Shown here in pieces: positions 7,816 through 64,000 of a stretch of DNA of 64,000 bases (within the stretch, counting starts at the first letter, position 1; the number at the start of each line of letters is the position of its first letter). Both the position numbers and the translations under genes were made by a program. The stretch covers positions 28,604-92,603 of the IMG/VR virus record IMGVR_UViG_3300033141_004852; one strand, 5' to 3'. The notes below the pieces were generated by a model. The model did not search any database. It was not told where the DNA came from and saw nothing but the letters and a program-made list of their open reading frames with translations. The DNA comes from a virus.

Positions 7816-8176
7816 GTGCTAATTTCACCCGCTGGAGAGACCGTACCCGCTCAATAGGTACTTCCAGAAGTCGCGACGCCGACTCGTGGTCCCAGGGCAT
7901 CAACGCCTGACACTTTGCCTCCGCCGCACGGTAGTTCGTCCGCACAGCACCCTGAAGCCACCGTAGGGCGTCCTGCGCCAACACCACCGAAGTCCTCGCC
8001 CCACTCAGATAGCGCCGGTACAAATTAGCGCGCACCAAATCGGCAGTCCACGGCCACACCCAAGACCAACGGCGGTCCACCAACCCTAGCGGAAACGCGT
8101 CGTCAAAAAGCCCCGATACACCATACTCGATCAGGAGATCTCTGCCATCGGCGTCGAGGAATTGGTAGCTATGCAC
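7799..8176 (-). CDS. Hypothetical protein
   Basis: 125 residues, not recognised. Trp- and Arg-rich helical protein, with the C-terminal half (ASRLLEVPIERVRSLQRVKLAL) resembling a DNA-binding helix pair. The start overlaps the upstream HIRAN gene by 46 bases. Its last codons overlap the -35 of the 7787-7815 promoter. Confidence 0.6.
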   Translation of the reverse strand: MHSYQFLDADGRDLLIEYGVSGLFDDAFPLGLVDRRWSWVWPWTADLVRANLYRRYLSGARTSVVLAQDALRWLQGAVRTNYRAAEAKCQALMPWDHESASRLLEVPIERVRSLQRVKLALDISG

Positions 8177-8619
8177 GGCGCATGTTCTCCCTGTCGCGGA
8201 ACCACGCGAATATACACATACAACCCCACTTGCTCGTCCTTATCGGGGTAGAATTGCCACACTTCCGCCTGCACACATACTCGCGGATATTGAAGCCACT
8301 CAGACACCTGAGTCGCCACCCCCCGCTCCCACTGATCCCGCGCATCCTCCCCACAGTTCGGACAATGAGAATACTCGTAATCGGGGAATGTCTGCTCGCA
8401 AACATGACACAGCGCGCGGTTCGGAAGGTAGCCGACAAACTGCCACCCATCACCTACCCAAGCATGGACTTGCACTGCATGGGAATCATGGGAGTTTTCC
8501 GGTTCGGGGACCAACTGCAACACATGCGGCCACATCCGCCGAAATCTCCCGAGGGCCCCCTGTACCTCCGGGCGGCGAGTCCCAACCAAGTGAGTATACC
8601 AGAAACGGAGGATTTTCAT
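8131..8619 (-). CDS. HIRAN-domain protein with inserted zinc finger
   Basis: 162 residues. VPEPENSHDSHAVQVHAW...FVGYLPNRAL is the HIRAN signature (E-P-x-N-x-x-D-x-x-A-V-x-V...GYLP), a domain that binds single-stranded 3' DNA ends and damaged DNA in HLTF/Rad5-type proteins. A CxxC...CxxC finger (CHVCEQ...CPNCG) follows directly after the GYLP strand. Stand-alone HIRAN proteins are uncommon in phages; a role in DNA-end handling is inferred. It overlaps the downstream gene by 46 bases and the sigma gene by 4. Confidence 0.75.
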   Translation of the reverse strand: MKILRFWYTHLVGTRRPEVQGALGRFRRMWPHVLQLVPEPENSHDSHAVQVHAWVGDGWQFVGYLPNRALCHVCEQTFPDYEYSHCPNCGEDARDQWERGVATQVSEWLQYPRVCVQAEVWQFYPDKDEQVGLYVYIRVVPRQGEHAPCIATNSSTPMAEIS

Positions 8620-9395
8620 GGCGACGCTCCCGCTACTGCATACTTCGTCTGATCATCGTCACCCATACACCAACGCCGCACCCGCTCCACCGACCGGCGT
8701 ATCCGCGCAGCAACCGTAGAAGCCGGGAGTCGATACCCAATAGCCAACTCCCGATACGACTGCTCATCCACATAGTATCCCCACACCAACTCACGATCAA
8801 GTGGTGGGAGGCGTTGCAGTCCATCCATCACCGCCACGCGACGAAGAATCCGATCCTCGAAACGCTCCCCCGTCTCCGAAGTCACCACATCCTGCAAGGT
8901 AGCGGGGGTTCCACTCTCACCACTATCCAGTGGTAAGTCAAGGCTCGTGACATTGGTGCAGATGTACCAGATCTGCGAGAGGCGCTCCACCATCTCCCCC
9001 GTAATTTGCTTCCCCAATACGGTGGCCTGCACATCTACCGCAATTTCCTCCGGGGTGGGTTGTCGGCGGAGCTGATCCGCCAACCGCTCCTGTGAGCGGT
9101 GAATCTTTGACATGATCTCCTGAATCCACGCAGGGCGCCGGATAAGGCGTCCCCGATCCCGGAGGTAATGCTGCATCCCACTGCGGCCGCGGTTCACCAA
9201 CCAGGTCACGATAGACGACTTACTCGGGTCGAACCACGCCATCCCACTAAGTGCCGACACCCACCCGGCCTGCACAAGATCTGCCCACTCATCCCGCGGC
9301 GCGCCCCACTTCCTCGCCAGATACCAAAGCGACTGCGTCACCTGGGCGATAACCAGAGGATTCAGATCCGACAGCGGAGAATCATCGGTAGCCAT
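8616..9395 (-). CDS. Sigma-70 family RNA polymerase sigma factor
   Basis: About 259 residues from ATG 9395, 6 bases after the upstream stop (GTG 9407 and TTG 9404 also in frame). Region 2: EWADLVQAGWVSAL...FDPSKSSIVTWL...GMQHYLRDRGRLIRRPAW (promoter -10 recognition). Region 3: a helix block with QPTPEEIAVDV. Region 4: LPPLDRELVWGYYVDEQSYRELA...STVAARIRRSVERVRRW, a clear HTH. It resembles the SigB/SigF/FliA group. It should give phage promoters preference on host polymerase, probably for late genes. Confidence 0.88.
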   Translation of the reverse strand: MATDDSPLSDLNPLVIAQVTQSLWYLARKWGAPRDEWADLVQAGWVSALSGMAWFDPSKSSIVTWLVNRGRSGMQHYLRDRGRLIRRPAWIQEIMSKIHRSQERLADQLRRQPTPEEIAVDVQATVLGKQITGEMVERLSQIWYICTNVTSLDLPLDSGESGTPATLQDVVTSETGERFEDRILRRVAVMDGLQRLPPLDRELVWGYYVDEQSYRELAIGYRLPASTVAARIRRSVERVRRWCMGDDDQTKYAVAGASP

Positions 9396-13548: not shown

Positions 13549-13640
13549 GATGAATCCTTTCCTTTCTCACACCCTATATACCGACGACTCGCTGAAATGT
13601 TACATCCACTCGTAGCCGCAACAACCCCACCAACAGTACC

Positions 13641-15968: not shown

Positions 15969-16256
15969 TCATAGCACGTCGTCCTCATCCACGATCTCGT
16001 AGTCTTCCCCCACGCACTCCACCCCCAACGATTCCGTCAATTCGGGGTCCCGCAACATAGCGTCCACATGCCAGGGCCAATCCGGCGACTTCGCAGGATG
16101 ATCATCCGGTAGCCGGACCATATCCCCACTCGTCCCCTCGAAGTCCTCCAGCGGCGGATGGTGGACACCCCATTTGATCCCATAGCCGGTAAGACCGTGG
16201 AACACCACCGTCCCCACACGCCTATCCAGTAGTCGTACAAGCGTACCGATCTCCAT
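15969..16256 (-). CDS. Hypothetical protein
   Basis: 95 residues, ATG after GAGGAAAG. N-terminus EIGTLVRLLDRRVGTVVFHGLTGYGIKW looks like a small SH3/Tudor-like beta barrel; acidic C-terminus. Overlaps the TOPRIM gene end by one base. Function unknown. Confidence 0.65.
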   Translation of the reverse strand: MEIGTLVRLLDRRVGTVVFHGLTGYGIKWGVHHPPLEDFEGTSGDMVRLPDDHPAKSPDWPWHVDAMLRDPELTESLGVECVGEDYEIVDEDDVL

Positions 16257-17074
16257 TATCCACTTTCCTCCTCAGCAATCTCCACCAAGCGTTGGCGGTC
16301 CCTGCACTCCTGCTCCTGGGCTTCCTCCCAAGCACCCTCATCGGTGATATGCTCACGCACTGAATCCTCAATCAATTTCTCCAACACATCCGGTGGCAGA
16401 GCATCCAACTCCACCGTGTCCTCACCGTGCGCCGCGAGGAAGCCCGCTGTCCGACTATCAGTATCCTTCGGCGGCGTCGGAGGAAGTTGATGACGCTCAA
16501 TCTGCTCGGGGAGCAGCGCTACCCGCTTCAGCGATACCCGCCATCCCCACGTTACCCGCAATTCCTCCTCGATAGAGCGGTTGATGTCAACTCCCGAGGG
16601 GTCCCAATCCCCGAAGTAGAGGATATTCCGCACCCGCCGATCCTTCGCCGCCACCAAGGTGCTCACCGAAGGATAGCCTCGACAAATCTGCAACGTCACT
16701 TGGAGGCGGTCTACCACCGGCAGGAACACTGTCGCCAGCGCCTGCTTCTCCAACCATACCTCTGGAGGTGAGTCCTGCTCCGCCCAATAATCGCGGCGGT
16801 AGCCATTCACCAACCCTCGCAAGAAATCACCCAAATCCGACCAACCACCGTGGTGCTGGGGCATCCGCGTCAAATCGGTGAAGGCATGAGGGGAAAGTTT
16901 CCCGTTTTTCCGCCACCGGGTCAGATGCGCGACGAGACGCTTGTACGAGCGCAGCGAGTTCGGAATGACTAGCCCTGCCACAAGTCGATAATAAAGTTGT
17001 CGGACGGTAATCGCCGAACCGTATTCGGCCAATACACACCGACACGCTCGCAAGAGATCGTCAGTCTTACTCAT
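16256..17074 (-). CDS. Spo11/topoisomerase VI subunit A-like TOPRIM protein
   Basis: 272 residues from ATG 17074 (GGAGTGG upstream). TVRQLYYRLV (24-32) matches the winged-helix catalytic-tyrosine motif (RDIYY) of Spo11/TopVI-A; VWLEKQALATVF (E109) matches the TOPRIM 'vEKeavF' motif; GDWDPSGVDI (D156-x-D158-P-x-G) matches the DxDPxG metal site. Topoisomerase VI-A and Spo11 make double-strand breaks through a tyrosyl link. This protein is shorter (TopVI-A is about 370 residues) and no B subunit is seen nearby. It may cut or nick DNA in recombination or relax it with a host partner; activity is inferred. Confidence 0.75.
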   Translation of the reverse strand: MSKTDDLLRACRCVLAEYGSAITVRQLYYRLVAGLVIPNSLRSYKRLVAHLTRWRKNGKLSPHAFTDLTRMPQHHGGWSDLGDFLRGLVNGYRRDYWAEQDSPPEVWLEKQALATVFLPVVDRLQVTLQICRGYPSVSTLVAAKDRRVRNILYFGDWDPSGVDINRSIEEELRVTWGWRVSLKRVALLPEQIERHQLPPTPPKDTDSRTAGFLAAHGEDTVELDALPPDVLEKLIEDSVREHITDEGAWEEAQEQECRDRQRLVEIAEEESG

Positions 17075-22191: not shown

Positions 22192-22284
22192 AGCGTGGGG
22201 AATCTACCACCTACTACAACAGGAGATCCGGGGGGAACCCGCTGTAAAAAGACTAAGTACCCTAGTACCGCCATTTTCGTCATA

Positions 22285-22313
22285 TTTATACCAAATGGGA
22301 CCCGTTTCAGAGG
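22285..22313 (-). promoter_or_regulatory. Leftward promoter candidate C (extended -10)
   Basis: Minus strand TGG-TATAAA (-10 at 22285-22290) with the GGGTCCCAT part of the palindrome in the spacer; the -35 (CCTCTG) is poor. The region after the -10 repeats that of candidate A. Confidence 0.5.
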
Positions 22314-22547
22314 AGGAGCTTATTTCATCGCCGGGGGGAACTCCCGGTTGAAAATGATAGTCCCGTGCAGTTGGTAGCAGATCCCGCAACCTACGGCGAT
22401 TTTCTATCACTGAAAAATGACTGAGGGGGGATTGTAGGCGAACTTGCGACAACAACTTACGTCGAGGGGGATCCTACGAGGGGATACCAATTTGGTGCCC
22501 ATTGTGAATCTCGAAGTACCTATCTCCCTGTTCCCATCACATTGGGG

Positions 22548-22576
22548 ATAGTATGGGACCCATTCTAGAGGTCGAA
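22548..22576 (-). promoter_or_regulatory. Leftward promoter candidate B with palindrome
   Basis: Minus strand TTCGAC (22571-22576), 17 bases, TACTAT (22548-22553). The spacer ends in the palindrome ATGGG-T-CCCAT (22553-22563), a likely operator overlapping the -10. Confidence 0.6.
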
Positions 22577-22675
22577 ATTAGGGAGGGAGAATACAATATA
22601 GATCAGGATGTGCACGCGGGGACAAGGAACAGACTGGGAAGATTACCTTGGCACTCTCATTTTCGTCATATCTAG

Positions 22676-22705
22676 ATAGTATGGGACCCATGCTAAGATG
22701 TTGAA
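22676..22705 (-). promoter_or_regulatory. Leftward promoter candidate A with palindrome
   Basis: Minus strand TTCAAC (22700-22705), 18 bases, TACTAT (22676-22681), same palindrome at 22681-22691. It lies 128 bases from copy B and shares about 40 bases with it, including GAAATT.GGGAGGG on the plus strand. Confidence 0.6.
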
Positions 22706-23031
22706 ATTGGGGAGGGTGTGCGTAGGAGGTGTCGATAATTGGTATGAGAATAGCCCACCCCTTGCTACCTCGGCAGGCGGAAACATGGGGGTGTACTGCA
22801 TAGGCCGGAGGGATAACGGGCCTTATCAACCTGGCCGCGCGGCCGCATGATCCGCCGTTAGCGGCCGGGAAGAGGGGCATTTTCGCCAATTCGGACAGGG
22901 GCAGATTCGGGCATGCTGAACACGCCGAAACGGTCCGCCGAATGGCGCGGCACACCCGAAGGTGTCTCCCCCTCTCCCCCTCACCACTACCCCCTTGGTG
23001 ATCTTTTATCCCGGATCGCCACAATTCCCTG

Positions 23032-23060
23032 TTGACAGTTACGGCGATATATGGTATATA
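23032..23060 (+). promoter_or_regulatory. First rightward promoter
   Basis: TTGACA, 17 bases, TATATA with ATGG directly before the -10 (extended -10). Preceded by ACAATTCCCTG, as at 25418. Drives the gene at 23092, whose ribosome site AGGAGG follows 15 bases later. Confidence 0.9.
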
Positions 23061-23091
23061 AGGATAGTAGATCAGGAGGTAGAGCACAACA

Positions 23092-23316
23092 ATGACTACT
23101 AGCAAAGCGCAGGCAATCGTGAACTACTACCGCGAACACCCTCGGCATGGTATCCGGGTATGGTTAGAGGAGGCAGATGTAGACGGACTCTACGCCGCGA
23201 TCATTGTCGAATCCGATGCGCGTGATTGGCGCCGGTCTATTCGGCGACTAGCACGGCGCCACCACCTGCGGGTTGAATCCTGGTATCAACCCCTACACCA
23301 GGGGACGCTAGTCTAA
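23092..23316 (+). CDS. Small hypothetical protein, first rightward gene
   Basis: 74 residues. A single small alpha/beta domain (GIRVWLEEADVDGLYAAIIVES...) with basic helix RRSIRRLARRHH. First gene behind the strongest promoter, so probably an immediate-early host-takeover protein. Not recognised. Confidence 0.7.
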   Translation: MTTSKAQAIVNYYREHPRHGIRVWLEEADVDGLYAAIIVESDARDWRRSIRRLARRHHLRVESWYQPLHQGTLV

Positions 23317-23360
23317 ACCGGGATAGGTGTCCCGGAATCACTCTATGGAGGTAGAGGAAG

Positions 23361-23519
23361 ATGGTAGCAAGACACACCTATCATGTGGCGGTATCAATCC
23401 GCTATGCCCGCCAGGTGCTGGACAGCATGGAGCAGGAAGGACGCGAGGTGATTCCCCCGTGTGAGAATGTGGACCGGGCAGGCAGATGCCGCGGCCACCA
23501 AGTAAAGGAGGGAGAATAA
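23361..23519 (+). CDS. Very small hypothetical protein
   Basis: 52 residues, ATG with GGAGGTAGAGG upstream. Begins MVARHTYHVAVS; helical centre; one cysteine pair separated by eight residues. Its TAA overlaps the ATG of the next gene. Confidence 0.6.
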   Translation: MVARHTYHVAVSIRYARQVLDSMEQEGREVIPPCENVDRAGRCRGHQVKEGE

Positions 23520-23716
23520 TGGTGGGCGACAACACAATCCACCTGCATACAATCAGATGCTACTGCGATCCCGGCCGCGTGTGGATTGTCGCCACACGCG
23601 GCACACAATCGCGAATTATAAACCCCTGGCCTGCTACACCGCAGGAGGCGGCCAGGCAGATACAACGCCTACGGGAGAAACTGGAGGCGGAGGGAACATG
23701 CATACAATCCAGGTGA
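23519..23716 (+). CDS. Small hypothetical protein
   Basis: 65 residues from ATG 23519 (GGAGGGAGAA upstream). Beta strand RVWIVATRG then an amphipathic helix AARQIQRLREKLEAEG. Unknown. Confidence 0.6.
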   Translation: MVGDNTIHLHTIRCYCDPGRVWIVATRGTQSRIINPWPATPQEAARQIQRLREKLEAEGTCIQSR

Positions 23717-24105
23717 TATTACGGGATTGTACCACGCAAGAGGACCATGTAGCCCTGCCGGAGGCAGGTAGCCGCGATCTGCGGGAGATGCTGGAGAGCA
23801 AGGGGGACTATGTGCTACAGCGCCTGGCCGCGGCGTTGTCGCCCGTTGTAGCGGCAGAGGAGGCGGAGGCGCGGGCGCGCGCCGCGCGCACCCTCACTCC
23901 TGCCGAACAGGGGATACTACAACGGGCCATACGCGCCGAAGGTTGGACAGTAGAGGCGATCACGCATGAAGGGCGCGTGATGCTGAAGATCAAGAACCCT
24001 CCCGAATCCGCCACCTGGCGGGCCGATGCCTATAGGGTGGCCAGGGCATTCGGGCTTCGCGTCCTGGAGTTTCTCCCGGAAAGGAGCGCGATCCTGTCCC
24101 GTTGA
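23698..24105 (+). CDS. Hypothetical protein
   Basis: 135 residues from ATG 23698 (GCGGAGGG upstream), overlapping the previous gene by 19 bases. A helical Ala/Glu/Arg-rich centre, then an alpha/beta part (GWTVEAITHEGRVMLKIKNP...). Unknown. Confidence 0.65.
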   Translation: MHTIQVILRDCTTQEDHVALPEAGSRDLREMLESKGDYVLQRLAAALSPVVAAEEAEARARAARTLTPAEQGILQRAIRAEGWTVEAITHEGRVMLKIKNPPESATWRADAYRVARAFGLRVLEFLPERSAILSR

Positions 24106-24113
24106 TATGCCGG

Positions 24114-24176
24114 GCGCGCGGGTGTCCCCGCGCGCTCTTCCCTCTCTGCCTCCGGGAGGGGACAGAGAGGGAAGAG
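24114..24176 (+). terminator. Double hairpin after gene
   Basis: GCGCGCGGG/CCCGCGCGC (24114-24122, 24127-24135) followed by a perfect 14-base stem CTCTTCCCTCTCTG/CAGAGAGGGAAGAG (24135-24148, 24163-24176). No T-run, so termination is not certain; may protect mRNA ends. Confidence 0.55.
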
Positions 24177-24184
24177 GTAGCACC

Positions 24185-24212
24185 TTGACAACGGAATACG
24201 CGCCTCTACTCT
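24185..24212 (+). promoter_or_regulatory. Weak promoter candidate
   Basis: TTGACA, 16 bases, TACTCT. The -35 is perfect but the -10 is poor and the TGGTATA context of the other promoters is missing. It would transcribe the pseudoknot at 24228 as a leader. Confidence 0.3.
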
Positions 24213-24227
24213 ACCTCCGGGAGGGGA

Positions 24228-24311
24228 GGGACTAGGATCACCAATCCCCTCCTCTCCTGCTAGGGAATTAGCGATCCTAGTCCCCTAGCAGGAGGGCGCG
24301 ACGCGCCCTCC
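24228..24311 (+). ncRNA. Pseudoknot-type structured leader
   Basis: Two perfect interleaved inverted repeats: GGGACTAGGATC (24228-24239) with GATCCTAGTCCC (24273-24284), and TCCTGCTAGGG (24255-24265) with CCCTAGCAGGA (24283-24293), order A-B-A'-B'. A third perfect stem GGAGGGCGCG/CGCGCCCTCC (24291-24311) overlaps B'. It precedes the gene at 24340. The topology is either a pseudoknot or a switch between exclusive hairpins. Confidence 0.55.
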
Positions 24312-24339
24312 CGAATCTAATCTACGGAGGTAGAGGCAG

Positions 24340-24900
24340 ATGGTAGCAGGACAGCAACAGATAGTGGGTATGGACGTCCCGGCCCGGAACCTGCTGGACT
24401 TGGACGCGGACGCCGTGCGCGAGGAACTGAATCGCGCGCAGATGGTGCTGGAGGACGGAAACATTATCCAATCCGTGTACCTCGGCCAATGTTGGGTGTT
24501 GTGTCCCGACGAGGCCGAACTGCGCGAACTGTTCCCTGCCAACGCCGACGCGACACGCGGTGAACTCGAAGATTATTGGTGGCAGGAGGCGGAGGCGTGG
24601 ATCACGGAGAACATGCCAGGAGTGTTCCTGCAGCAGGAGGCGGGAGAAACATACCTCCAGCAGGTGGCCCAGGAACTCCACGAATGCTTGCAGGTAGACG
24701 AATGCCAAGGAACCCTCTCCTATGGCGGCCGCGTGGTATACCGTCTACCAGATGCCGCGCGGGAACACGTGGAGTGTGTGTTTGATGCCCTCCTGCGCGC
24801 CGCGACCAGGTGGTGTAGACGCAAAGGGTTTTGGCCATGGGTTGTGTCCGTAAATCCCTCCGGCGAAGTGTTCACGCACATCCCGCCCGTCAACGCGTAG
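24340..24900 (+). CDS. Hypothetical protein
   Basis: 186 residues, GGAGG upstream. Acidic, helical N-terminal two thirds (Trp/Glu-rich WWQEAEAWITENMP), then a small beta segment with GRVVYRLP and WPWVVSVNPSGEVF. Not recognised; expression probably governed by the structured leader. Confidence 0.7.
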   Translation: MVAGQQQIVGMDVPARNLLDLDADAVREELNRAQMVLEDGNIIQSVYLGQCWVLCPDEAELRELFPANADATRGELEDYWWQEAEAWITENMPGVFLQQEAGETYLQQVAQELHECLQVDECQGTLSYGGRVVYRLPDAAREHVECVFDALLRAATRWCRRKGFWPWVVSVNPSGEVFTHIPPVNA

Positions 24901-25208
24901 AGGATCGGGCCGGCAACCTTGCCGGCCCCTCCCGGAAGGTGATCGCCACCAATCACCTTCCGGGAGGGATAGAGTAGAGGTGTAGATTCACACATTCGCA
25001 GGTGATCCGCTGATCCTGCGAAGTGTCTAAATTGTCCTGCCCGCGCGCCTTGCCGCGAAGCAAGCAAGTGCTAGGTTGGTATGATCGCAGAAGCAGGCAA
25101 GCACCTGGCCCCCTGGACACCTGCGGCAGGAGGCCGGGGGAGGTCGCGGGCAGGGGAGGTAACAGGGAGGTAACAGCACCTCGCGTAACACAACAGGAGG
25201 CCAGGTAA
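24901..25208 (+). other. Structured intergenic stretch
   Basis: Two adjoining perfect hairpins (GGGCCGGCAA/TTGCCGGCCC at 24907-24928; a 16-base stem at 24928-24943/24952-24967) and a third, TTCGCAGG/CCTGCGAA (24995-25022). A frame at 25023-25208 has no usual start and reads low-complexity, so is not called. GGTTGGTATGAT near 25075 resembles an extended -10 but lacks a -35. Confidence 0.5.
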
Positions 25209-25421
25209 ATGGACTACGTAGATGGTGGTAACGGGAATATCATTGTAACGCACGCAGGGAAACCTGTAGCGGTGATCCTCTCCGAGGGTGAACACCTCTG
25301 TGAAAACTGCTACAGGCGGCCCGCGGAACATACCCTCTATATTCCCGATGAACCCGACGGCGAGAACAGGCCATTCTCCACAGGAAACACCAAAAGGGGG
25401 TGTAACACAATTCCCTGTTGA
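25209..25421 (+). CDS. Small protein with CxxC
   Basis: 70 residues, CAGGAGG upstream. NIIVTHAGKPVAVIL then CENCYRRPAEHTLYIPDEP. Its 3' end overlaps the next promoter (25418). Unknown. Confidence 0.6.
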   Translation: MDYVDGGNGNIIVTHAGKPVAVILSEGEHLCENCYRRPAEHTLYIPDEPDGENRPFSTGNTKRGCNTIPC

Positions 25422-25446
25422 CAATTCGGGGGAATTGTGGTATAGG
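25418..25446 (+). promoter_or_regulatory. Rightward promoter with perfect palindromic operator
   Basis: TTGACA, 17 bases, TATAGG, TGTGG before the -10. ACAATTC-GGGG-GAATTGT (25421-25438) is a perfect inverted repeat filling the spacer; a second pair CACAATTCCC (25406-25415)/GGGAATTGTG (25430-25439) flanks the -35. Strong sign of a dimeric repressor site. Confidence 0.85.
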
Positions 25447-25473
25447 TAGAATACCAACAGGAGGTAGGACACT

Positions 25474-25680
25474 ATGGCGAGGTTATACGCAAGGCTGAAT
25501 GCCGACGCAAGCAAGCACGAGGTAACCCGCCGCGGCCACCGCCGAATCACCGCCCGCCTAGAGACGTGGGGTGGGGCGGTGGAGGTAACGCTATGCGCAA
25601 ACGGTTCCTTCACTGTCACGAAGGGGCCGAAACATAACCCGCAGGAGGTGATCGCCGTCGGAAGCCTCCCCCTGGAGTAA
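25474..25680 (+). CDS. Small hypothetical protein
   Basis: 68 residues, AGGAGGTAGG upstream. Basic N-terminus, beta strands RRITARLETWGGAVEVTLC and SFTVTKGP. First gene behind the 25418 promoter. Confidence 0.65.
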   Translation: MARLYARLNADASKHEVTRRGHRRITARLETWGGAVEVTLCANGSFTVTKGPKHNPQEVIAVGSLPLE

Positions 25681-25696
25681 CACCCCCGGCCACCCT

Positions 25697-25738
25697 CCCC
25701 TCTCCCGGTCGCGCTGATCTACACGGCAGGGAGAGGGG
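25697..25738 (+). terminator. Hairpin after gene
   Basis: CCCCTCTCCC/GGGAGAGGGG, ten perfect pairs, 22-base loop; no T-run. Confidence 0.5.
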
Positions 25739-25769
25739 ATGGGAGAACACATAATAGGAGGCAGGACAG

Positions 25770-26303
25770 ATGCCGCCGTCACCGTATGAACCCGCCCCGG
25801 TAACTATCGGGGAGAAGTGGGCGCACGGACGCCCCTGCCCGGCAACAGATAGGTTTTCGCGGGCGCTCCTGTATCTGCGACAATTAGACAAAGATGCCGC
25901 GGACCGCGTAGAACACCACGCCGCGGCGTATGTAACAGTGCTCCACCAAAACCCCGACGACGTACAGGCCGATGAGAGAGTGTGGGAATACCTGCAAGAG
26001 GTATATACGCTGATAGAAGAGCACGCAGAGGCCTATACGTACTTCGGCGCGTGTCGCGAGGGAGGCCCCGGTGTCGGGTGTTGGCCGGATTGGGATAGAG
26101 TACAGGACGCCCTCGCGAATGGTGATCTGCTAACCGCAGATACGGTCCTTGCAGAGGATTCTCACACTATCAATAGCCCGCGTGATCTGCGCGAAGGCGC
26201 GCTGATATTCGCGGGCGACGCCGCGCAAAACACGGGAACCCTCTGGCAGGTGGTGGAGGTCGCGGGCGACCGCGTAACCCTGCGGAGGTGTTGGGAAGAG
26301 TAA
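25770..26303 (+). CDS. Hypothetical protein
   Basis: 177 residues, GGAGG upstream. Helical, acidic N-terminal 130 residues; C-terminal EGALIFAGDAAQNTGTLWQVVEVAGDRVTLRRCW looks like a small beta barrel. Unknown. Confidence 0.65.
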   Translation: MPPSPYEPAPVTIGEKWAHGRPCPATDRFSRALLYLRQLDKDAADRVEHHAAAYVTVLHQNPDDVQADERVWEYLQEVYTLIEEHAEAYTYFGACREGGPGVGCWPDWDRVQDALANGDLLTADTVLAEDSHTINSPRDLREGALIFAGDAAQNTGTLWQVVEVAGDRVTLRRCWEE

Positions 26304-26309
26304 CAGGAA

Positions 26310-26349
26310 CCTCCCTCCTGCGACTAGTGATCTGGCCGCAGGAGGGAGG
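26310..26349 (+). terminator. Perfect 13-base hairpin
   Basis: CCTCCCTCCTGCG (26310-26322) and CGCAGGAGGGAGG (26337-26349), loop of 14. No T-run. Confidence 0.55.
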
Positions 26350-26378
26350 GGACAAACACAGAAGGGAGGTAGGTAACA

Positions 26379-26722
26379 ATGGTAACAGCGTATGAAAAGG
26401 CCGTAGAACGGGGCGGTGAAGGTCTCGAAGGCTACACCCCGGTATCGGGGCGAACTGCCCGACGTGTTGCCGCAGGTGGGGCGTGGACGCTGAGGACGCC
26501 GCCGCGGTCGCCAGGTTCAGCGACCGTATCAGTGGGGGGGAGGTAGAAGAGGATGGTGGGTTTTCCTGGGCCGCCTGTGATCTGTGCGGAAGCACGTTGG
26601 GCGGGGATAGATTCGCGGCCCACGGATTCACCCCGGAAGGCAAACTGATCCACCTGGATATATGCATGGACTGTTTGCAGTACCTCGCCAACGGAACAAT
26701 CCCGGAAGAGTGGGAGGGATAA
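26379..26722 (+). pseudogene. Frameshifted zinc-ribbon gene, paralogue of 29526-30218
   Basis: ATG 26379 has a strong site (GGGAGGTAGG) but its frame closes at 26546. The -1 frame, with no start of its own near a ribosome site, continues NCPTCCRRWG...ACDLCGSTLGG...DICMDCLQYLANGT, which aligns with NCPTCLRLYG...PCDLCGAPPG...VICADCAAYFANGT of 29526-30218. The frames meet around GGTATCGGGGCGAAC (26441-26455). Either a one-base indel (or assembly error) or -1 slippage on GGGG. GTG 26483 could start a shortened 79-residue product. Confidence 0.6.
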
Positions 26723-26726
26723 CACT

Positions 26727-27056
26727 ATGGACAGGTTTGAGAAGTACGCCCCTTATCACCCTTGGGGGGACGTTGCGCGGTATGCCGCGCGGTTGTACCC
26801 CAATGCCCACGAGATGCAAGCGTGGACACAAGCCACCGCGGCCGCCTGCGGCCGCGCGTACTTGGAGAATCGTGCGCTCCTGCGGCTTTATGCGCGTGAT
26901 TTGGCGAAGAAGGCCGTCACCCTTCTCCGAGGCGAGGTGACTGTAACGGAGGTGATCCCCGACTACCTCCGGGACGCGCCGAATGCCCCGCGGACTATCC
27001 CGGAAGCACTGGCGATCCTCGCCCAAGAGTCTATTTGGGCAGCAGCAGGACTATAG
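26727..27056 (+). CDS. Hypothetical helical protein
   Basis: 109 residues, starting four bases after the previous stop. Helical throughout, with a Tyr/Arg/Ala-rich centre. Unknown. Confidence 0.65.
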   Translation: MDRFEKYAPYHPWGDVARYAARLYPNAHEMQAWTQATAAACGRAYLENRALLRLYARDLAKKAVTLLRGEVTVTEVIPDYLRDAPNAPRTIPEALAILAQESIWAAAGL

Positions 27057-27084
27057 ACAATCAAGAAGAAGGAGGTAGGACACT

Positions 27085-27483
27085 ATGCGCGTAACAATTG
27101 AGTGGGGCCACCCCGACGCGGGGCAGAACTACGTGGAGCGGATTCGCTTGTGTCCCGCGTATCGGGACTACGTGAAGGACCCGCGGGAGGTGGTGCTGGA
27201 GGCCGACGGCGGCGACCTCGGCATGATTCGCAACGGCGGGCGCGGGTGGGTTTGCGTCCTCTATCCCGACGGTAACTGCCCACACACAGAACCCCGTAAC
27301 GGAGAATGTGCGGCATGTAAACTGACCTGCGCAGTCCCCGTGTTCGCCCTGGACGGGACACCCGTAGACGGGGAGGCCGCGGAGGTATGTACCCCCCAGG
27401 AGGCCGCCGCACAAGCGGAGGCGGCAATCCGCGAGGTAGTAGACGAATGGATTATTGACCTCGTGGAGGCCGCAGAGGAATAA
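27085..27483 (+). CDS. Hypothetical protein with zinc-like cysteines
   Basis: 132 residues, GGAGGTAGG upstream. Beta-rich N-terminal half (VTIEWGHPDAGQNYVERIRLC), CPHTEPRNGECAACKLTC as a possible zinc site, then an acidic helical tail. Unknown. Confidence 0.65.
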   Translation: MRVTIEWGHPDAGQNYVERIRLCPAYRDYVKDPREVVLEADGGDLGMIRNGGRGWVCVLYPDGNCPHTEPRNGECAACKLTCAVPVFALDGTPVDGEAAEVCTPQEAAAQAEAAIREVVDEWIIDLVEAAEE

Positions 27484-27488
27484 CCCTG

Positions 27489-27517
27489 TTGACAATTCGG
27501 GAGAATCATGGTATATA
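27489..27517 (+). promoter_or_regulatory. Rightward promoter with partial palindrome
   Basis: TTGACA, 17 bases, TATATA, ATGG before the -10. ACAATTC-GGGA-GAATCAT keeps five of seven palindrome positions of the 25418 promoter. Confidence 0.85.
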
Positions 27518-27539
27518 CTACCGGGAGGTAGGAAAAACA

Positions 27540-27788
27540 ATGGCGAAACGCGTAACTGCCGGAAAGTGGTATCGCTACACCGCCGCGCACTTGATGGATC
27601 GGGTGATTCACCCGCCCGACAACCTGCAACCGGGCGACCTCGTGCAGGTCAAGAACCTGACCGGGTGTCCCCCCTGTAACACAATGGGCATGGCGCACGT
27701 GGTACACCCCGACGGCACCCTTGGAGGACTGGTATACACGGCAAGCCTAGAACCTGCCCGCGCCCCCCAGAAGGAGAATGCCGCATGA
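27540..27788 (+). CDS. Small hypothetical protein
   Basis: 82 residues from ATG 27540 (GGGAGGTAGG upstream). KRVTAGKWYRYTAAHL, then PGDLVQVKNLTGCPPCNTMGMAHVV, resembling a small SH3-like fold with one CxxC. Confidence 0.65.
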   Translation: MAKRVTAGKWYRYTAAHLMDRVIHPPDNLQPGDLVQVKNLTGCPPCNTMGMAHVVHPDGTLGGLVYTASLEPARAPQKENAA

Positions 27789-28054
27789 CTACTACCCACC
27801 AGGTAACAGGTTGGACTTCTGAGGAATGGCAACAAGCAAGCGTGATCGGTTACGGGGATTACCGCAACAGTATTCCCGGAATCACGTATGCCTTGACCGC
27901 GAATGGGGATGTACTGGTAGCCCGAAACGCAGGTGCTGATCTGCGCCTCCGCTACAACGTTCCCCCGGCTACCCCGGACTTCGGCCCCGCGGAGAGGGCG
28001 GCACTCGCTCGCCGTCGCCTGCGCGCCGACGGCTGGCCCCTGCGAGGGAGGTAA
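27785..28054 (+). CDS. Small hypothetical protein
   Basis: 89 residues, overlapping the previous gene by four bases (ATGA), GGAG upstream. Ends in an Arg/Ala-rich helix. Unknown. Confidence 0.6.
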   Translation: MTTTHQVTGWTSEEWQQASVIGYGDYRNSIPGITYALTANGDVLVARNAGADLRLRYNVPPATPDFGPAERAALARRRLRADGWPLRGR

Positions 28055-28056
28055 CA

Positions 28057-28251
28057 ATGAGAATGAGAACACCTCCCCACCAAGTGACAACGGAACCCGT
28101 GGACTGCACCTGCGCGAAGTGCGGTGGCCCCGCGGTTATCTACCCCGTCCCGCGACCGCGGGGAACCTGTATCTGCAAACGGTGTTCCCCACCGTGGGCC
28201 GCCGACTTCGTAAACTTTCTCCTGCAACAGGAGCAAGAAGGGGGCAAGTAA
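28057..28251 (+). CDS. Zinc-ribbon mini-protein
   Basis: 64 residues, GGGAGG upstream. CTCAKCGGP...CICKRCSPP is a four-cysteine zinc ribbon; helical C-terminus. Confidence 0.65.
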   Translation: MRMRTPPHQVTTEPVDCTCAKCGGPAVIYPVPRPRGTCICKRCSPPWAADFVNFLLQQEQEGGK

Positions 28252-28252
28252 C

Positions 28253-28675
28253 ATGCGAATGATCTTCGCCCTCCAATACGCCGAGGGCTACCCGACGGCA
28301 TACCACGTTCCCGCGGAACGGTGGCAGGAGGCGTCCCGCCATACTCGCTACCCCGACGCGCTGATAGCGCAGAGGAAGCACAACCTGCGAACCGGGGGTA
28401 AATGTGTCTACCGCGTAGTGCCCCTCCGGGATACCTTCGCGACGTTTACCTTCCTCTGCCAGGGGGCGCGGGCAACGGACTATCGCTGCCCACACAACGC
28501 TCACGAGCGTGTAACAGTCCCCTGGCCCGCGGGGACACCGTACCCCCTACGTCCAACCCTACCAAGGTGGGCCGCCAGCAACCTCTGCATGGCATGCGCC
28601 AACGCGGCAGAGGTCGCCGACACACACAAGAAAGGTGAGGAAGAACATGCTCTTGACCGCAGAACTTTGGTATGA
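28253..28675 (+). CDS. Hypothetical protein with cysteine pairs
   Basis: 140 residues. Alpha/beta N-terminus (MIFALQYAEGYPTAYHVPAERW), then CQGARATDYRCPHNAHERV and LCMACANAAEV, a possible split zinc site. Unknown. Confidence 0.6.
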   Translation: MRMIFALQYAEGYPTAYHVPAERWQEASRHTRYPDALIAQRKHNLRTGGKCVYRVVPLRDTFATFTFLCQGARATDYRCPHNAHERVTVPWPAGTPYPLRPTLPRWAASNLCMACANAAEVADTHKKGEEEHALDRRTLV

Positions 28676-28892
28676 ATCTCACCGCGGGAGTGGGCGCGTG
28701 ATCTGCCGATCTGCCGCAGAATTGAAGCGCGCCCTAGCACGAACCCGCCCGGACTATGCTAGCCTCACCGTCGCCCGGAGGGGTGCACCTGCCACCTCGT
28801 GGGATTCTGCCCACAATGCAAGGCAGAACTACACGCTGATCTGCGGGGGGGTGTATGATCTACCGCCCGCCAATTATGACGGGGATTTTTGA
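28647..28892 (+). CDS. Small hypothetical protein
   Basis: 81 residues from ATG 28647 (GGTGAGGAAG upstream), overlapping the previous gene by 29 bases. Alpha/beta; unknown. Confidence 0.6.
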   Translation: MLLTAELWYESHRGSGRVICRSAAELKRALARTRPDYASLTVARRGAPATSWDSAHNARQNYTLICGGVYDLPPANYDGDF

Positions 28893-28915
28893 TCTACTAC
28901 AGGAGGTAGGACCCT

Positions 28916-29206
28916 ATGCTAGAGGAAGAGTGCAAGATTCGCACCACGTTTGAACTGTGCCGCCGGGGTGTAACAGTCACAGATGCCCTGCGCTTGTTCC
29001 GCACGGCACGGAGGCTACGCCGCCTCTGCCTGCACTATGCCGAACGCCCACTCACGCCCGGCGAACTCAGAAGACTAGTGGAGGCGAAGGCCGTCCTAGA
29101 AGCAGCGGACGGCGTGAGCACGCAGCGCGACCCGCGCTACACCGTCGCCTATCTAACGGTGGAGGGCGCAACGGGAGAGGAAGTCAAACTCCCCCTAGAC
29201 TGCTGA
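28916..29206 (+). CDS. Small helical protein
   Basis: 96 residues, CAGGAGGTAGG upstream. Arg-rich helices (ALRLFRTARRLRRLCLHYA), then TVAYLTVEGATGEEVKLPL. Unknown. Confidence 0.65.
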   Translation: MLEEECKIRTTFELCRRGVTVTDALRLFRTARRLRRLCLHYAERPLTPGELRRLVEAKAVLEAADGVSTQRDPRYTVAYLTVEGATGEEVKLPLDC

Positions 29207-29224
29207 TCTGTGAGGAAGGCTACC

Positions 29225-29509
29225 ATGCCCACAGCGAATGATAGCGACGTAGCACTCACCCCGACGGTGCAAGTGGGGCCGGGGGGAATCACTTGGCGGG
29301 AGGCGTTAGCACAAGCACCGCCCGGAGGGCATTATCGGGCGATTCCCTATCCACAGGTTCCGGGCCTGCTTGTACAAGTAATCGTGGGGGCACGCGTGGT
29401 ATTCTCCGGGATGGTAGTATGCCGCCGCTCCCGATCTGATCTGGCGCGGTGGACGCGTGAGGTGAGGAAACTCCACGGATGGATTGTTCTGCCAAGTCAA
29501 ACACCGTAA
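29225..29509 (+). CDS. Small hypothetical protein
   Basis: 94 residues from ATG 29225 (GAGGAAGG upstream). Beta-rich LLVQVIVGARVVFSGMVV, basic helix after it. Unknown. Confidence 0.6.
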   Translation: MPTANDSDVALTPTVQVGPGGITWREALAQAPPGGHYRAIPYPQVPGLLVQVIVGARVVFSGMVVCRRSRSDLARWTREVRKLHGWIVLPSQTP

Positions 29510-29525
29510 CAGGAGGTAGGAGAGA

Positions 29526-30218
29526 ATGACACTAGGACTATACCAATACCTGCGCGACCTTGCCCCGAAAACCCGAACCTACGCGGGTAACGGGAACAAC
29601 AAGGTCGTACCGGGAGCGGCACCAAACTGTCCGACCTGCCTGCGCCTCTACGGACTGACCAGCCCACAAGCCTTCGCTGATCTGCTAGAGGTAGAGGGTG
29701 AGCCGGACCCCTTCACAGGTGGGGACCCCTGCGATCTCTGCGGGGCACCGCCGGGCCTGCGTGTAACAGCGCACGCTGAGGACCGCGAAACAGGAAGGCT
29801 AGTACACCTCGTGATCTGTGCCGACTGTGCCGCCTACTTCGCTAACGGCACCCCTCCGACCGACGTTGACCTCACGTTTGAGCGGTGTTGGACAGCGCCC
29901 ATAAACCCCGATGCCTGGGGCGTATGGTGGGAGGGCAAACGCTTTCCCGACGGGCGCGGAATCCTCTTCGTGGAGGTCGCCCGTAGTCCAGCACCACCCG
30001 ACCCGGCACTCGTGCAGGACGTGCTGAATAACGCGGGTGGCGATCCCGTGGAGAAAGTCCGGCATGGCGACGCCTGGATTCTGAAAACTTGGCATGACTC
30101 CCCGGAGCGAAAAGCGCTAATCGCTGCCCGCGTGATCCGACGCTGGCGACAAGGGTGGCGCCGCGGAGTGAATAGCATGTATAAGCACCACCCCGAATTA
30201 GCGACAATCACTACTTGA
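29526..30218 (+). CDS. Double zinc-site protein, intact paralogue of the 26379 gene
   Basis: 230 residues, CAGGAGGTAGG upstream. NCPTCLRLYG, PCDLCGAPPG and VICADCAAYFANG give three CxxC pairs; the C-terminal 110 residues (VEKVRHGDAWILKTWHDSPERKALIAARVIRRW) are helical and basic. Probably a nucleic-acid- or protein-binding early protein. Its final codons overlap the next promoter. Confidence 0.7.
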   Translation: MTLGLYQYLRDLAPKTRTYAGNGNNKVVPGAAPNCPTCLRLYGLTSPQAFADLLEVEGEPDPFTGGDPCDLCGAPPGLRVTAHAEDRETGRLVHLVICADCAAYFANGTPPTDVDLTFERCWTAPINPDAWGVWWEGKRFPDGRGILFVEVARSPAPPDPALVQDVLNNAGGDPVEKVRHGDAWILKTWHDSPERKALIAARVIRRWRQGWRRGVNSMYKHHPELATITT

Positions 30219-30243
30219 CAATTCGGGCGAAACATGGTATGCT
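30215..30243 (+). promoter_or_regulatory. Rightward promoter
   Basis: TTGACA, 17 bases, TATGCT, ATGG before the -10; spacer ATTCGGGCGAAAC keeps the TTC-N4-GAA core. Confidence 0.85.
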
Positions 30244-30265
30244 GAGTAACAGGAGGTAGGAAAAC

Positions 30266-30748
30266 ATGTACTTGATCTTACAAGAGGAAAACGTCGGCGG
30301 GTGCGTTGTCCGTTTCGGCACAGATTGTCACGGAATGTATGAACTCACTATGCACCTGTCCAACGAATCCCCGCCTAACGCACCTTCGTTAGCGAACTTG
30401 ATAGAGAGGTGGGGCCTGTGTCCCCTCACTTCTGACACCCCCGAAGAAAACGCGACACGAATCCCCGTAGCCCCACGAGTCAGCGCGCAGGAGGTACTGT
30501 CCCGAATCCCGGAGGCACAAACACTCGCGGACCGGATGCCGGGGGGTAGTAGTATTATACTGTTGCTCGGCAAACAGCGATATGACGTAGTCCCCACCGT
30601 CCAATTCGCTCTCCCAAACTGGGCCGACCGCTATGCCGCGGTGGAGGTAGCATTCTGTGATGACTCCACCCGCGAATACGACCCCGAACTACGTCTAGGG
30701 CTACTCCAAACGCGCTGCGCAGAGTGCGGCCTAGTCCTTGACGACTGA
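30266..30748 (+). CDS. Hypothetical protein
   Basis: 160 residues, AGGAGGTAGG upstream. Beta-rich N-terminus, acidic; ends with a single CAECGLVLDD knuckle. Unknown. Confidence 0.65.
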   Translation: MYLILQEENVGGCVVRFGTDCHGMYELTMHLSNESPPNAPSLANLIERWGLCPLTSDTPEENATRIPVAPRVSAQEVLSRIPEAQTLADRMPGGSSIILLLGKQRYDVVPTVQFALPNWADRYAAVEVAFCDDSTREYDPELRLGLLQTRCAECGLVLDD

Positions 30749-30782
30749 TCCAAAACACCATTAGGAGGCAGGAGGCGTAACA

Positions 30783-31412
30783 ATGCAAGAAGTGTCAGAG
30801 GTATTGGAGTTTGCGGACGGTGCAACGCTAAGAATCATGCCGGACCCCAACCCTCCGAATCCCCGCGAATCGGATAACTTGGGGAAGATGATATGCTGGC
30901 ATTCACGGTACAACCTCGGCGACCGCCACGACTTCGCGACCCCGCAGGACTTTCACGAGTGGGAGGCAAGCCCGGCCGGAGAGGGTGCGGAGGTTCTACC
31001 CCTCTACCTGCTAGACCACAGCGGTATCACCATGAGCACCAAACCCTTCTCCTGCCGGTGGGATAGCGGCTGCGTCGGATTCATCTCCGTAACAAAGACC
31101 CGGATTCTCCAAGAGTACGGAGAAGATACCAAAGAGGTACGCGCTCGCGTCCGCGAGGTACTACGGAACGAGGTGGCCACTTATGACAAGTGGCTCCGGG
31201 GGGACACTTGGGGGTACGCCCTATTCGGGCCTCCGGTCACCTGCGACAAGTGCGGACACACGGAGACCCCGCTCCTGGACTCTTGCTATGGGTTCTTCGG
31301 ATCGGACCACGAAGCGTCCGGCATGTTCGACAACCTCCCCGATCCCTACGGCAAGTGGGCAAAAGAAGGTAACTACACTGAGAAAGAGGACCGGACCCCA
31401 TGCAGAGTATAA
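30783..31412 (+). CDS. Hypothetical protein related to plasmid/phage antirestriction-region proteins
   Basis: 209 residues, GGAGGCAGGAGG upstream. ATLRIMPDPNPPNPRESDNLGKMICWHSRYNLGD...F, PLYLLDHSGITMST, WDSGCVGFISVTKT and CYGFFGSDHE are the conserved blocks of a protein family often found on plasmids and phages with 'DPNPxNPRE' at the N-terminus. Function not established to my knowledge; early expression suggests host takeover. Confidence 0.7.
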   Translation: MQEVSEVLEFADGATLRIMPDPNPPNPRESDNLGKMICWHSRYNLGDRHDFATPQDFHEWEASPAGEGAEVLPLYLLDHSGITMSTKPFSCRWDSGCVGFISVTKTRILQEYGEDTKEVRARVREVLRNEVATYDKWLRGDTWGYALFGPPVTCDKCGHTETPLLDSCYGFFGSDHEASGMFDNLPDPYGKWAKEGNYTEKEDRTPCRV

Positions 31413-31561
31413 CCGCCATGATCTGCCGATTCGTGGACGTTGTCACAGACTGCATGGACGCGGCGACGCCCTACGTACCCTACGCTGGAGCGGCGATCCT
31501 CACGTACATAGCCTGGCGTATGTACGTTGGGATAGAGCACACTCTCGGACCCATACCCTAG
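31400..31561 (+). CDS. Small membrane-anchored protein
   Basis: 53 residues, ATG overlapping the previous gene by 13 bases. A Cys-containing amphipathic N-terminus, then YVPYAGAAILTYIAWRMYVGI as one membrane span. Low ribosome-site strength. Confidence 0.5.
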   Translation: MQSITAMICRFVDVVTDCMDAATPYVPYAGAAILTYIAWRMYVGIEHTLGPIP

Positions 31562-31890
31562 CCGATCCCCCGCCCACCCCTGGGGGAATCGGTAGCGAAG
31601 GGAGGCGGAGACAATGTAATACTGATCCCCGATAATCGCGTGCTAATAGGTTGAACGGGGAGGGTTCCCCCGGTCGGGGGGACTCTCCCCCAAGGAAGCG
31701 GGAGCACCGTATCCTTGGGGGAGGGGCTAGAGAAACCTTGACAACCTGGCAGGGTGAGTAACTTGTCCCCACGGGGGCACGGGAGGCATTCCTACCTCCG
31801 GGGACACCCTCGCGGTGCGGGGGTGTCCCTCCCTCCCGTGACGGTCCACGGGGATCGCCACGGGAGGGCAAACTACTAGGAGGTAGTATC
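31562..31890 (+). ncRNA. Highly structured non-coding stretch
   Basis: No gene in 329 bases. Several perfect or near-perfect stems: CCGATcCCCC/GGGGGaATCGG just after the stop, GTTCCCCC/GGGGGGAC near 31672-31691, CTCCCCCAAGGA/TCCTTGGGGGAG near 31684-31722, and GGGGACACCC/GGGGTGTCCC near 31800-31830 nested in GGGAGG/CCTCCC. It could end the upstream unit and act as a leader for the gene at 31891, or be an RNA itself. Confidence 0.45.
31738..31764 (+). promoter_or_regulatory. Weak promoter candidate
   Basis: TTGACA followed after 15 bases by TAACTT; spacing short and no TGGTATA context. Confidence 0.3.
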
Positions 31891-32100
31891 ATGTACCGAG
31901 TGACGTTGGAGTCCGAAGAATATGGGGTAGAGGAGTTTCGCTACCCCACGCTAAGGGATGCGCGGGAAGCAGTAGCCCGCCTCAGTGAGGAATGTGTAAA
32001 TGCTCACAAGCGGGACGGGGTAGAACGTAGGATTGTCCTGCATATCCCCGCACGAAGTGCCGACCCCGCCGCCGCCAAAGAGGAGGCGGAATCATGCTGA
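31891..32100 (+). CDS. Small hypothetical protein
   Basis: 69 residues, AGGAGGTAG upstream. YRVTLESEEYGVEEFRYPTLRDAREAVARL is one strand-strand-helix unit. Unknown. Confidence 0.65.
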   Translation: MYRVTLESEEYGVEEFRYPTLRDAREAVARLSEECVNAHKRDGVERRIVLHIPARSADPAAAKEEAESC

Positions 32101-32276
32101 AGTGCCTTCGCCGCCACCTTCTGTATCTGGAGTGGTGGTGCTACAAGACTGCCGCCGACGCCTTCGTGGCGCTGGCGCGGAGCGCGGGGGACGCGCTCCT
32201 GCAAATCCACGGATACCCGGCTGAGGAAGACGCTATCCACCGGGCCGCGACTCCCCCACACGCCCGCCCGAAGTAA
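32094..32276 (+). CDS. Small helical protein
   Basis: 60 residues from ATG 32094 (GGAGG upstream), overlapping the previous gene. An amphipathic Trp/Leu/Ala helix (LLYLEWWCYKTAADAFVALA) may lie on a membrane. Confidence 0.6.
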   Translation: MLKCLRRHLLYLEWWCYKTAADAFVALARSAGDALLQIHGYPAEEDAIHRAATPPHARPK

Positions 32277-32277
32277 C

Positions 32278-32306
32278 TTGACACCGCGGGCGAAACATGG
32301 TAACAT
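32278..32306 (+). promoter_or_regulatory. Rightward promoter
   Basis: TTGACA, 17 bases, TAACAT, ATGG before the -10; spacer CCGCGGGCGAAAC related to those at 27489 and 30215. Confidence 0.8.
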
Positions 32307-40805: not shown

Positions 40806-41928
40806 TCAGCAGTGGCAGGCTTTCCTACACTGGTTCAACGGCTACTACTTGGAGGCACTGGCCGACACCTCCCTAGTGGGGGAGGCGCGGATCAGGGAGA
40901 ACCTCCACATCCTCTACCCGCTCTACCAAGCATGGCAACGCTGCCAGCAGTGTCAGGAGGGTAACGGGTGCAACGGGCAGAAGATGGAGTTGGATGTGTC
41001 CGCCTCGCGGTTCTATGGGGAGTACCTGCCGAAGATCACCCCCTGCCCAAACTTCCCCCGCCCACTAGTTGACGTTTTTACTGGTTTACAGGGTACGGGG
41101 TTTTCAACTCCCATGCTCAACAAAGTGGTCCAGAAACTGACAAAAATGTCAAGCGATTCGGACTTGACAAAAATGGAACAAAAAAACGGCTTGACAAAAA
41201 CGGAGCGTTTTTCCGAAATTACAAACGGCTTGACAAAAACGGAAGGACGCGGCCGAAACTGCAAAAACGACGAAATCAGGGGTGAAAAATCAGATCAGGG
41301 ATGGGAAAATACCCCTATTTCACTTATTTTGTCAAGGCTGGAAACAGAGGGAGTGGGGAGGGAATTACTCGTGAATGGGGGACTCGTTGTCTTACCACTG
41401 TCGATTTACGGCGGCAAAGGGGTACAAAATGGGGCTGAAGGGCGAATAGAAAGAATTATATCTCTAGGTAGTAGAGAGAGTATTACTACCACGCGCGCAC
41501 GCGCGCACGCGAGGGCCTACGAGATTCCGATTTTTGGGGATGGTGTAATTCAGGCTTCGGGAGTGAGTGCCCACGAACTCGGTCATTGGTTGGGGGTGTT
41601 CCTCGCTCTCCACGGAGTGGCCGCGGGGTTCCTCGATGCTCTCGGGATGCACGCCGCCGGTGACTGGGGGGACTCCCCCCTCGCGCAGTTTCTCCAATAC
41701 AGCGAGGAGGTGGGCGCCCTCGTGGTAACGAACTACGATCACCTGCCCCCCGGGAGGCAGTCGACATCCCTGGTGTTGGCGGCGCTCTCGCGTTTCCTCT
41801 CCGAAGATGGAATACTGTGGGTGGTGATCTCGCAGCCGCCGGAGCAGATGCAGGTGCGAGATCCCCTGGAAACCCCCGTTTGGAGTGAGATCCTGGAACT
41901 GCCACGATACGAGGTAGTCAACCCATGA
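40795..41928 (+). CDS. Putative replication initiator/helicase loader with internal iterons
   Basis: 377 residues from ATG 40795 (overlapping the previous gene). Helical N-terminal domain with CQQCQEGNGC; a central segment (about 110-230) that is AT-richer and repeats LTK-[MT]-E units; and a C-terminal ATPase-like domain, HELGHWLGVFLALHGV...GALVVTNYDHL...DGILWVVISQ, resembling the Walker B half of DnaC/DnaA-type loaders without a P-loop. Directly upstream of the DnaB-like helicase. The arrangement recalls lambda O, whose gene contains the origin. Function inferred. Confidence 0.55.
   Translation: MLTDQQWQAFLHWFNGYYLEALADTSLVGEARIRENLHILYPLYQAWQRCQQCQEGNGCNGQKMELDVSASRFYGEYLPKITPCPNFPRPLVDVFTGLQGTGFSTPMLNKVVQKLTKMSSDSDLTKMEQKNGLTKTERFSEITNGLTKTEGRGRNCKNDEIRGEKSDQGWENTPISLILSRLETEGVGRELLVNGGLVVLPLSIYGGKGVQNGAEGRIERIISLGSRESITTTRARAHARAYEIPIFGDGVIQASGVSAHELGHWLGVFLALHGVAAGFLDALGMHAAGDWGDSPLAQFLQYSEEVGALVVTNYDHLPPGRQSTSLVLAALSRFLSEDGILWVVISQPPEQMQVRDPLETPVWSEILELPRYEVVNP
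41137..41243 (+). repeat. Iterons, candidate replication origin
   Basis: Four direct copies of CTTGACAAAAAyGGA-like sequence: 41137 (CTGACAAAAATG), 41163, 41190, 41229, spaced 26, 27 and 39 bases, plus an inverted copy ATTTTGTCAAG at 41326-41336. The surrounding 400 bases are clearly AT-richer than the genome. Typical of an iteron origin with an AT-rich unwinding zone. Confidence 0.6.
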
Positions 41929-63907: not shown

Positions 63908-64000
63908 ATATCAGTGTCAGGAGGTATCGGTAGCGGGGGACTCAACGCCGTCGCGGGCGGAGATTCTCAATGTCAGGCAGACACGATTGGAAATCCTGCA

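Follow-up and report, generated by a model that had tools for sequence, protein, structure and literature searches.

We analysed a family of predicted promoters in a 64,000-nucleotide stretch of phage DNA (hereafter the window), which comprises bases 28,604-92,603 of a 92,603-base IMG/VR virus record (IMGVR_UViG_3300033141_004852). The genome appears to be complete because the record ends carry an exact 114-base direct terminal repeat (C1:1-114, at the record start, is identical to window 63887-64000). Genes to the left of ~22.1 kb (left arm) run leftward and include those for virion proteins, a probable terminase, lysis-like and nucleotide functions and a sigma factor. Genes from 23.09 kb (right arm) run rightward, with many small proteins first, followed by a sliding clamp, a tyrosine recombinase, helicases, DnaB, a primase, a RecA-like protein and PolA. 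The predicted promoters and one degenerate relative are listed here and are designated below by the first base of the -35 box.

23032-23060, + strand: promoter 1, TTGACA GTTACGGCGATATATGG TATATA; heads the rightward arm; ATG at 23092, 31 nt past the -10; no dyad
25418-25446, + strand: promoter 2, TTGACA ATTCGGGGGAATTGTGG TATAGG; inverted repeat at 25421-25438; extra ACAATTC at 25407; ATG at 25474
27489-27517, + strand: promoter 3, TTGACA ATTCGGGAGAATCATGG TATATA; partial dyad; ATG at 27540, 22 nt past the -10
30215-30243, + strand: promoter 4, TTGACA ATTCGGGCGAAACATGG TATGCT; TTC-N4-GAA core only; TTGACA contains the upstream gene's TGA stop; ATG at 30266
32278-32306, + strand: promoter 5, TTGACA CCGCGGGCGAAACATGG TAACAT; left dyad half lost; ATG at 32338
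7787-7815, - strand: leftward promoter, TTGACA TTTCAGGCTAAATGTGG TATAGA; inverted repeat at 7795-7812
13575-13603, - strand: degenerate seventh family member, GTAACA TTTCAGCGAGTCGTCGG TATATA; GTG start at 13548

TTGACA-N17-TATA occurred four times in the window, compared to 0.05 expected in shuffles, and allowing TATG and TAAC gave six sites (23032, 25418, 27489, 30215 and 32278 on the + strand and 7815 on the - strand), each with TGG directly before the -10. A preliminary description of this DNA had assigned TTGACA-N17-TATA preceded by TGG to five rightward promoters and one leftward promoter; all six sites were recovered, with the correction that 30215 reads TATG and 32278 reads TAAC. It had also proposed a motif search of the whole genome, and our matrix scan of the full record returned the same six sites at 34-45 bits and no other position above 9 bits. 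With 29-bp leave-one-out matrices, each of the six scored above every non-family position of 185,146. In 80 other phage loci (1.37 Mb), TTGACA-N14-TGN-TA was present 5 times, compared to 6 times in the 92.6 kb examined here. The six full sites were thereby confirmed, and a degenerate leftward seventh, 13603 (-), had been overlooked: it reads GTAACATTTCAG-N9-GGTATA, has the left half and GGTATA in common with 7815, and has neither the right arm nor the TG. The promoter family is real and specific to this genome.

With near-consensus -35 and -10 boxes 17 bp apart and a TG upstream of the -10, the six sites match bacterial sigma-70/sigma-A extended -10 promoters. The five rightward sites stand ~2.1-2.7 kb apart where the replication arm begins, their -10 boxes end 22-31 nt before an ATG, and AGGAGG or GGGAGG (a Shine-Dalgarno sequence) precedes each ATG; on these signals, all five are very probably promoters. 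The leftward site, 7815, overlaps the 3' end of the gene at 7799-8176, and since its -10 stops 2 nt before the annotated ATG at 7784, its transcript would be leaderless or start within the gene, which makes a weaker case for it as a promoter. The proposal that the family acts on both halves of the genome holds to the extent of this single leftward site. A phage-encoded sigma factor offers a rival account of the promoter classes:

8616-9395, - strand: phage-encoded sigma-70-family factor with regions 2, 3 and 4

Judging from their standard sigma-A hexamers, the six promoters do not need this factor.

In ordinary sigma-A promoters the spacer sequence is not conserved. Here, the 14 free spacer bases had a mean pairwise identity of 0.62 over six sites and 0.71 over four, compared to 0.24-0.33 (near random) in most flanks and a slightly higher 0.30-0.40 in the five bases before TTGACA. 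The consensus of the element across the family was ATTCGGGcGAAacATGG; GG at spacer positions 6 and 7 (sp6-7) was invariant in all six sites, and A at sp10 was also among the best-conserved bases. When spacer-only matrices were built leaving out one site at a time, 1, 5, 8, 132, 170 and 439 of the 185,146 positions equalled or exceeded the score of the omitted site. Because conservation extends beyond the promoter boxes into the spacer and exceeds that of most flanks, a shared recognition element is suggested, and this conservation is the strongest evidence for recognition by something besides RNA polymerase.

Symmetry within the spacer was less marked. Two perfect 18-base palindromes had been described previously, and inverted repeats were indeed present at both places, each with an unpaired centre: ACAATTC-GGGG-GAATTGT at 25421-25438 (7+4+7) and ACATTT-CAGGCT-AAATGT at 7812-7795 (6+6+6). 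Their arms are partly dictated by the promoter (ACA from TTGACA, TG from the extended -10), and the full inverted repeat occurs in two of the six sites (25418 and 7815). The remaining sites were said to keep a TTC-N4-GAA core, which we found in two of them (27489 and 30215) and not in 23032 (TTA-CGGC-GAT) or 32278 (CGC-GGGC-GAA); the palindromic 7815 also lacks it (TTC-AGGC-TAA), and the degenerate 13603 (-) site has the left dyad half only. Out of six possible spacer pairs, 1 was complementary at 23032, 4 each at 25418, 27489 and 30215, 2 at 32278 and 3 at 7815, giving a total of 18 compared to 9.4 expected (p = 0.023 with columns permuted jointly; 0.043 over five axes). The sp1/sp12 pair occurred in two variants, A-T and T-A, both complementary. 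Among TTGACA-N17-TA spacers from the 80 other phage loci, 0 of 26 had at least 4 of 6 complementary pairs, compared to 3 of 6 here, a comparison limited by the fact that the three sites reaching this level are copies of one another. Overall, dyad symmetry is marginal and weakly significant (p ~0.02-0.04), and the data allow a symmetric operator, an asymmetric operator or neither. When a TTGACA-N17-TGn-TATA promoter contains a palindrome, only the spacer bases left free by the promoter should be used to judge it.

Five early promoters of the host-sigma extended -10 type and one leftward promoter carry a common spacer element, which may be the binding site of a single regulator. Most likely, such a regulator would be a repressor that keeps RNA polymerase off the promoters and thereby shuts down the early transcription units jointly, either during lysogeny or once early expression is over; it would bind either as a dimer on the dyad or through asymmetric contact with the -35/spacer block. 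We put at roughly 0.5 the probability that operator-like spacers coordinate the early promoters, which would be an arrangement of a known kind in a new phage, and regard an operator role for the spacer, symmetric or not, as plausible. If the spacer is an operator, it would provide a compact readout of co-switched genes in an orphan phage as well as bait for the repressor.

Several results weigh against coordinated control of this kind. The dyad is absent at 23032 and 32278, and the invariant central GG is asymmetric and non-complementary; the six sites are probably in part copies of one another and hence not independent; a spacer-motif scan of the whole record found no free-standing operators outside promoter context; no convincing repressor family was detected among 85 proteins of both arms (Pfam and PHROGs, with NCBIfam in addition for the right-arm set); and seven protein queries and two DNA patterns retrieved no relative from the collections in which conservation could be seen. 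The dimeric repressor that the preliminary description had placed on the palindrome is possible. Of that interpretation, the phage-wide promoter family with a conserved spacer is well supported; the symmetry is marginal, missing from two or three sites and broken by the GG at sp6-7.

The lone exception in the repressor scans was the protein that had been put forward as the repressor (as 3839-4270):

3839-4285, - strand: two-helix-turn-helix (two-HTH) and zinc-ribbon protein

It weakly matched a 'DNA binding protein' family and a D5-like regulator. Its gene has later genes of the leftward arm around it and a glycoside-hydrolase-like lysis gene as its neighbour, an unlikely position for an immunity repressor, and nothing ties the protein to the promoters; we do not retain it as the candidate. 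Its single-sequence AlphaFold model was of low confidence (mean predicted local distance difference test score 68) and had no significant Foldseek match and no structural match to a repressor; comparison with PDB sequences gave a short partial match only, and the INPHARED phage collection contained no relative. Separately, a Phd/YefM-like assignment of 25209-25421 was dismissed (16.7 bits against a cut-off of 29.8).

Tentatively, the sites could instead be strong promoters without any operator, copied through short duplications or recombination inside the arm, in which case spacer likeness would reflect residual ancestry or selection for promoter strength, and the inverted repeats would be by-products of TTGACA...TGTGG. 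The sharing of blocks among sites is indeed mosaic-like: the exact 13-mer TTGACAATTCGGG is common to 25418, 27489 and 30215, CGGGCGAAACATGGTA to 30215 and 32278, and CCCTGTTGACA to 23032, 25418 and 27489; CACAATTCCCTG precedes both 23032 and 25418, and the right half of promoter 5 is that of promoter 4 (16 identical bases). The modest significance of the dyad and chance spacers of a similar kind in unrelated Clostridia and phage promoters point the same way. However, the likeness ends at the promoter edges, and a normally unconstrained spacer has been kept even across opposite arms (7815 compared to the right-arm sites), and both points weigh against copying.

It is doubtful, though conceivable by analogy with cluster A mycobacteriophages, that the spacer is an asymmetric operator bound by a monomeric repressor. 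The best-conserved spacer bases (GG at sp6-7 and A at sp10) are not symmetric, the 13-mer recurs exactly at three sites, and every site is oriented with transcription; moreover, L5-type repressors bind as monomers, each carrying two DNA-binding domains (PMC9283540, PMC6550527), and a two-HTH protein is encoded in the window. That protein, however, has a zinc ribbon, no relative in the phage collection and no structural match to a repressor. Promoter-free 'stoperator' copies were also absent, as the closest non-promoter matches to the 13-mer in the record had at least 2 mismatches, compared to 20-30 sites in cluster A. Another improbable reading is a new immunity or early-shutoff circuit, in which a novel type of regulator would recognise all early-promoter spacers and no other site of the genome, in a phage lineage without known relatives in the collections searched.

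DNA matches to the 23-33 kb region were absent from 50,697 phage records, and no IMG/VR relative was found by protein with PolA, the DUF6582-containing structural protein, the probable terminase or the topoisomerase. An alignment-based topoisomerase scan gave 80 loci with at most 43% identity, and local tblastn with 129 predicted proteins detected no gene set syntenic with these loci. The topoisomerase itself (16256-17074, - strand) belongs to the phage 'DNA topoisomerase' family phrog_6247, and many unrelated phages and plasmids encode proteins ~38-43% identical to it. PolA, DnaB, terminase, portal-like, sigma and two-HTH queries found no close relative in INPHARED.

Occurrences of the motif elsewhere are not evidence of a shared operator, because the collections hold many TTGACA-N17-TGn-TA promoters. 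The TTCGGG form matched one unrelated contig in IMG/VR, and the TTCGGG-N-GAA pattern matched nine scattered Clostridia promoters in 84,980 bacterial and archaeal genomes, two of which (L009 and L017) apparently precede a tRNA-Leu gene. We rejected these matches as a fingerprint of the host, as nine scattered promoters are compatible with chance on strong promoters. Exact ACAATTC-N4-GAATTGT in promoter context was present on four unrelated IMG/VR contigs and absent with one composition-matched scrambled control (4 vs 0, not significant). That the spacer is the site of a host regulator, such as a LexA-like repressor through which the phage would sense a host state such as DNA damage, is very improbable, given that these four contigs, its one point in favour, are about the handful expected from a rough estimate of promoter abundance and that the Clostridia promoters are scattered, with at least two before tRNA genes and no SOS context seen.

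One virus contig (G003, 105.6 kb, the contig of L019) carries many rightward TTGACA-N17-TA promoters, 11 of them on the + strand between 2806 and 45535, and several of their spacers contain differing short dyads (AGAT-TCTAG-ATCT, ACAATTC-CCTG-GAATTGT). We did not take these palindromes as support, since the contig had been picked for one palindrome and is a biased choice. In another unrelated virus contig (L005:2604-2780), non-coding DNA downstream of a TTGACAATTCGGGAGAA..TGGTAAAAT promoter contains long inverted repeats (AAAGAGCCACAGTGA/TCACTGTGGCTCTTT) and may specify a structured RNA.

Other features of the window were also recorded. GC skew on the + strand was ~-0.2 in the leftward arm (1-22000) and ~0 in the rightward arm (23000-64000), AT skew was positive across most of the window, and the arms differed in codon or strand bias. 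The ~1-kb non-coding divergent region contains three leftward repeats of GGGTCCCA (22303, 22561 and 22689, within 22265-22720, - strand), with ATGGGTCCCATACTAT after TTTCrAC in two and ATATGACGAAAATG in two, which could be a second leftward class of promoter or operator. A single open frame at 46500-49121 (+ strand) encodes a uracil-DNA-glycosylase domain and a family A DNA polymerase with 3'-5' exonuclease. Directly upstream of the DnaB-like helicase gene, TTGACAAAAACGG repeats are clustered within 41152-41245 (at 41164, 41191 and 41230) and may be origin-like iterons. Between early-arm genes we observed strong G+C-rich inverted repeats with 17-23-nt arms and no T tracts, which may serve as terminators or as processing sites separating the promoter units:

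24135-24311, 24927-24968, 25693-25742, 26310-26349, 31685-31723 and 31831-31868: G+C-rich inverted repeats

Among known systems, bacterial sigma-70/sigma-A extended -10 promoters have in common with these sites TTGACA, a 17-bp spacer, TGn-TAtaat and an interval of 22-31 nt between -10 and start codon; the sites differ from ordinary promoters of this type in that their spacers are conserved between copies. In phiC31 (conserved inverted repeats) and P1 (c1 operators), the same repressor site is present at several early promoters and one protein silences all of them; there, the repressor and its binding have been shown, whereas the evidence here is from sequence. Since control of many early promoters by one repressor is already known, the gain would be mainly for this uncharacterised lineage. 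Cluster A mycobacteriophages (L5/Bxb1) similarly carry a short motif in multiple genome copies, oriented with transcription; theirs are 13-14-bp asymmetric sites recognised by a monomer with two DNA-binding domains, and some lie within early promoters (PMC9283540, PMC6550527). They number 20-30, lie mostly outside promoters and come with a known repressor gene, whereas each of the six or seven sites here has a promoter context and every close match is a promoter. Cluster O phages (Corndog) contain a 17-bp dyad of unknown function, TGTTCGG-N3-CCGAACA, in more than 30 copies, together with 8-9 predicted SigA promoters, some leaderless (PMC4351075). Those dyads are clean, often inside genes, away from promoters and not tied to spacers, whereas the six or seven here are imperfect and confined to promoter spacers. 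In its logic the arrangement resembles those of clusters A and O, phiC31 and P1, and the one class to which the sites themselves can be assigned is that of sigma-A-type promoters.

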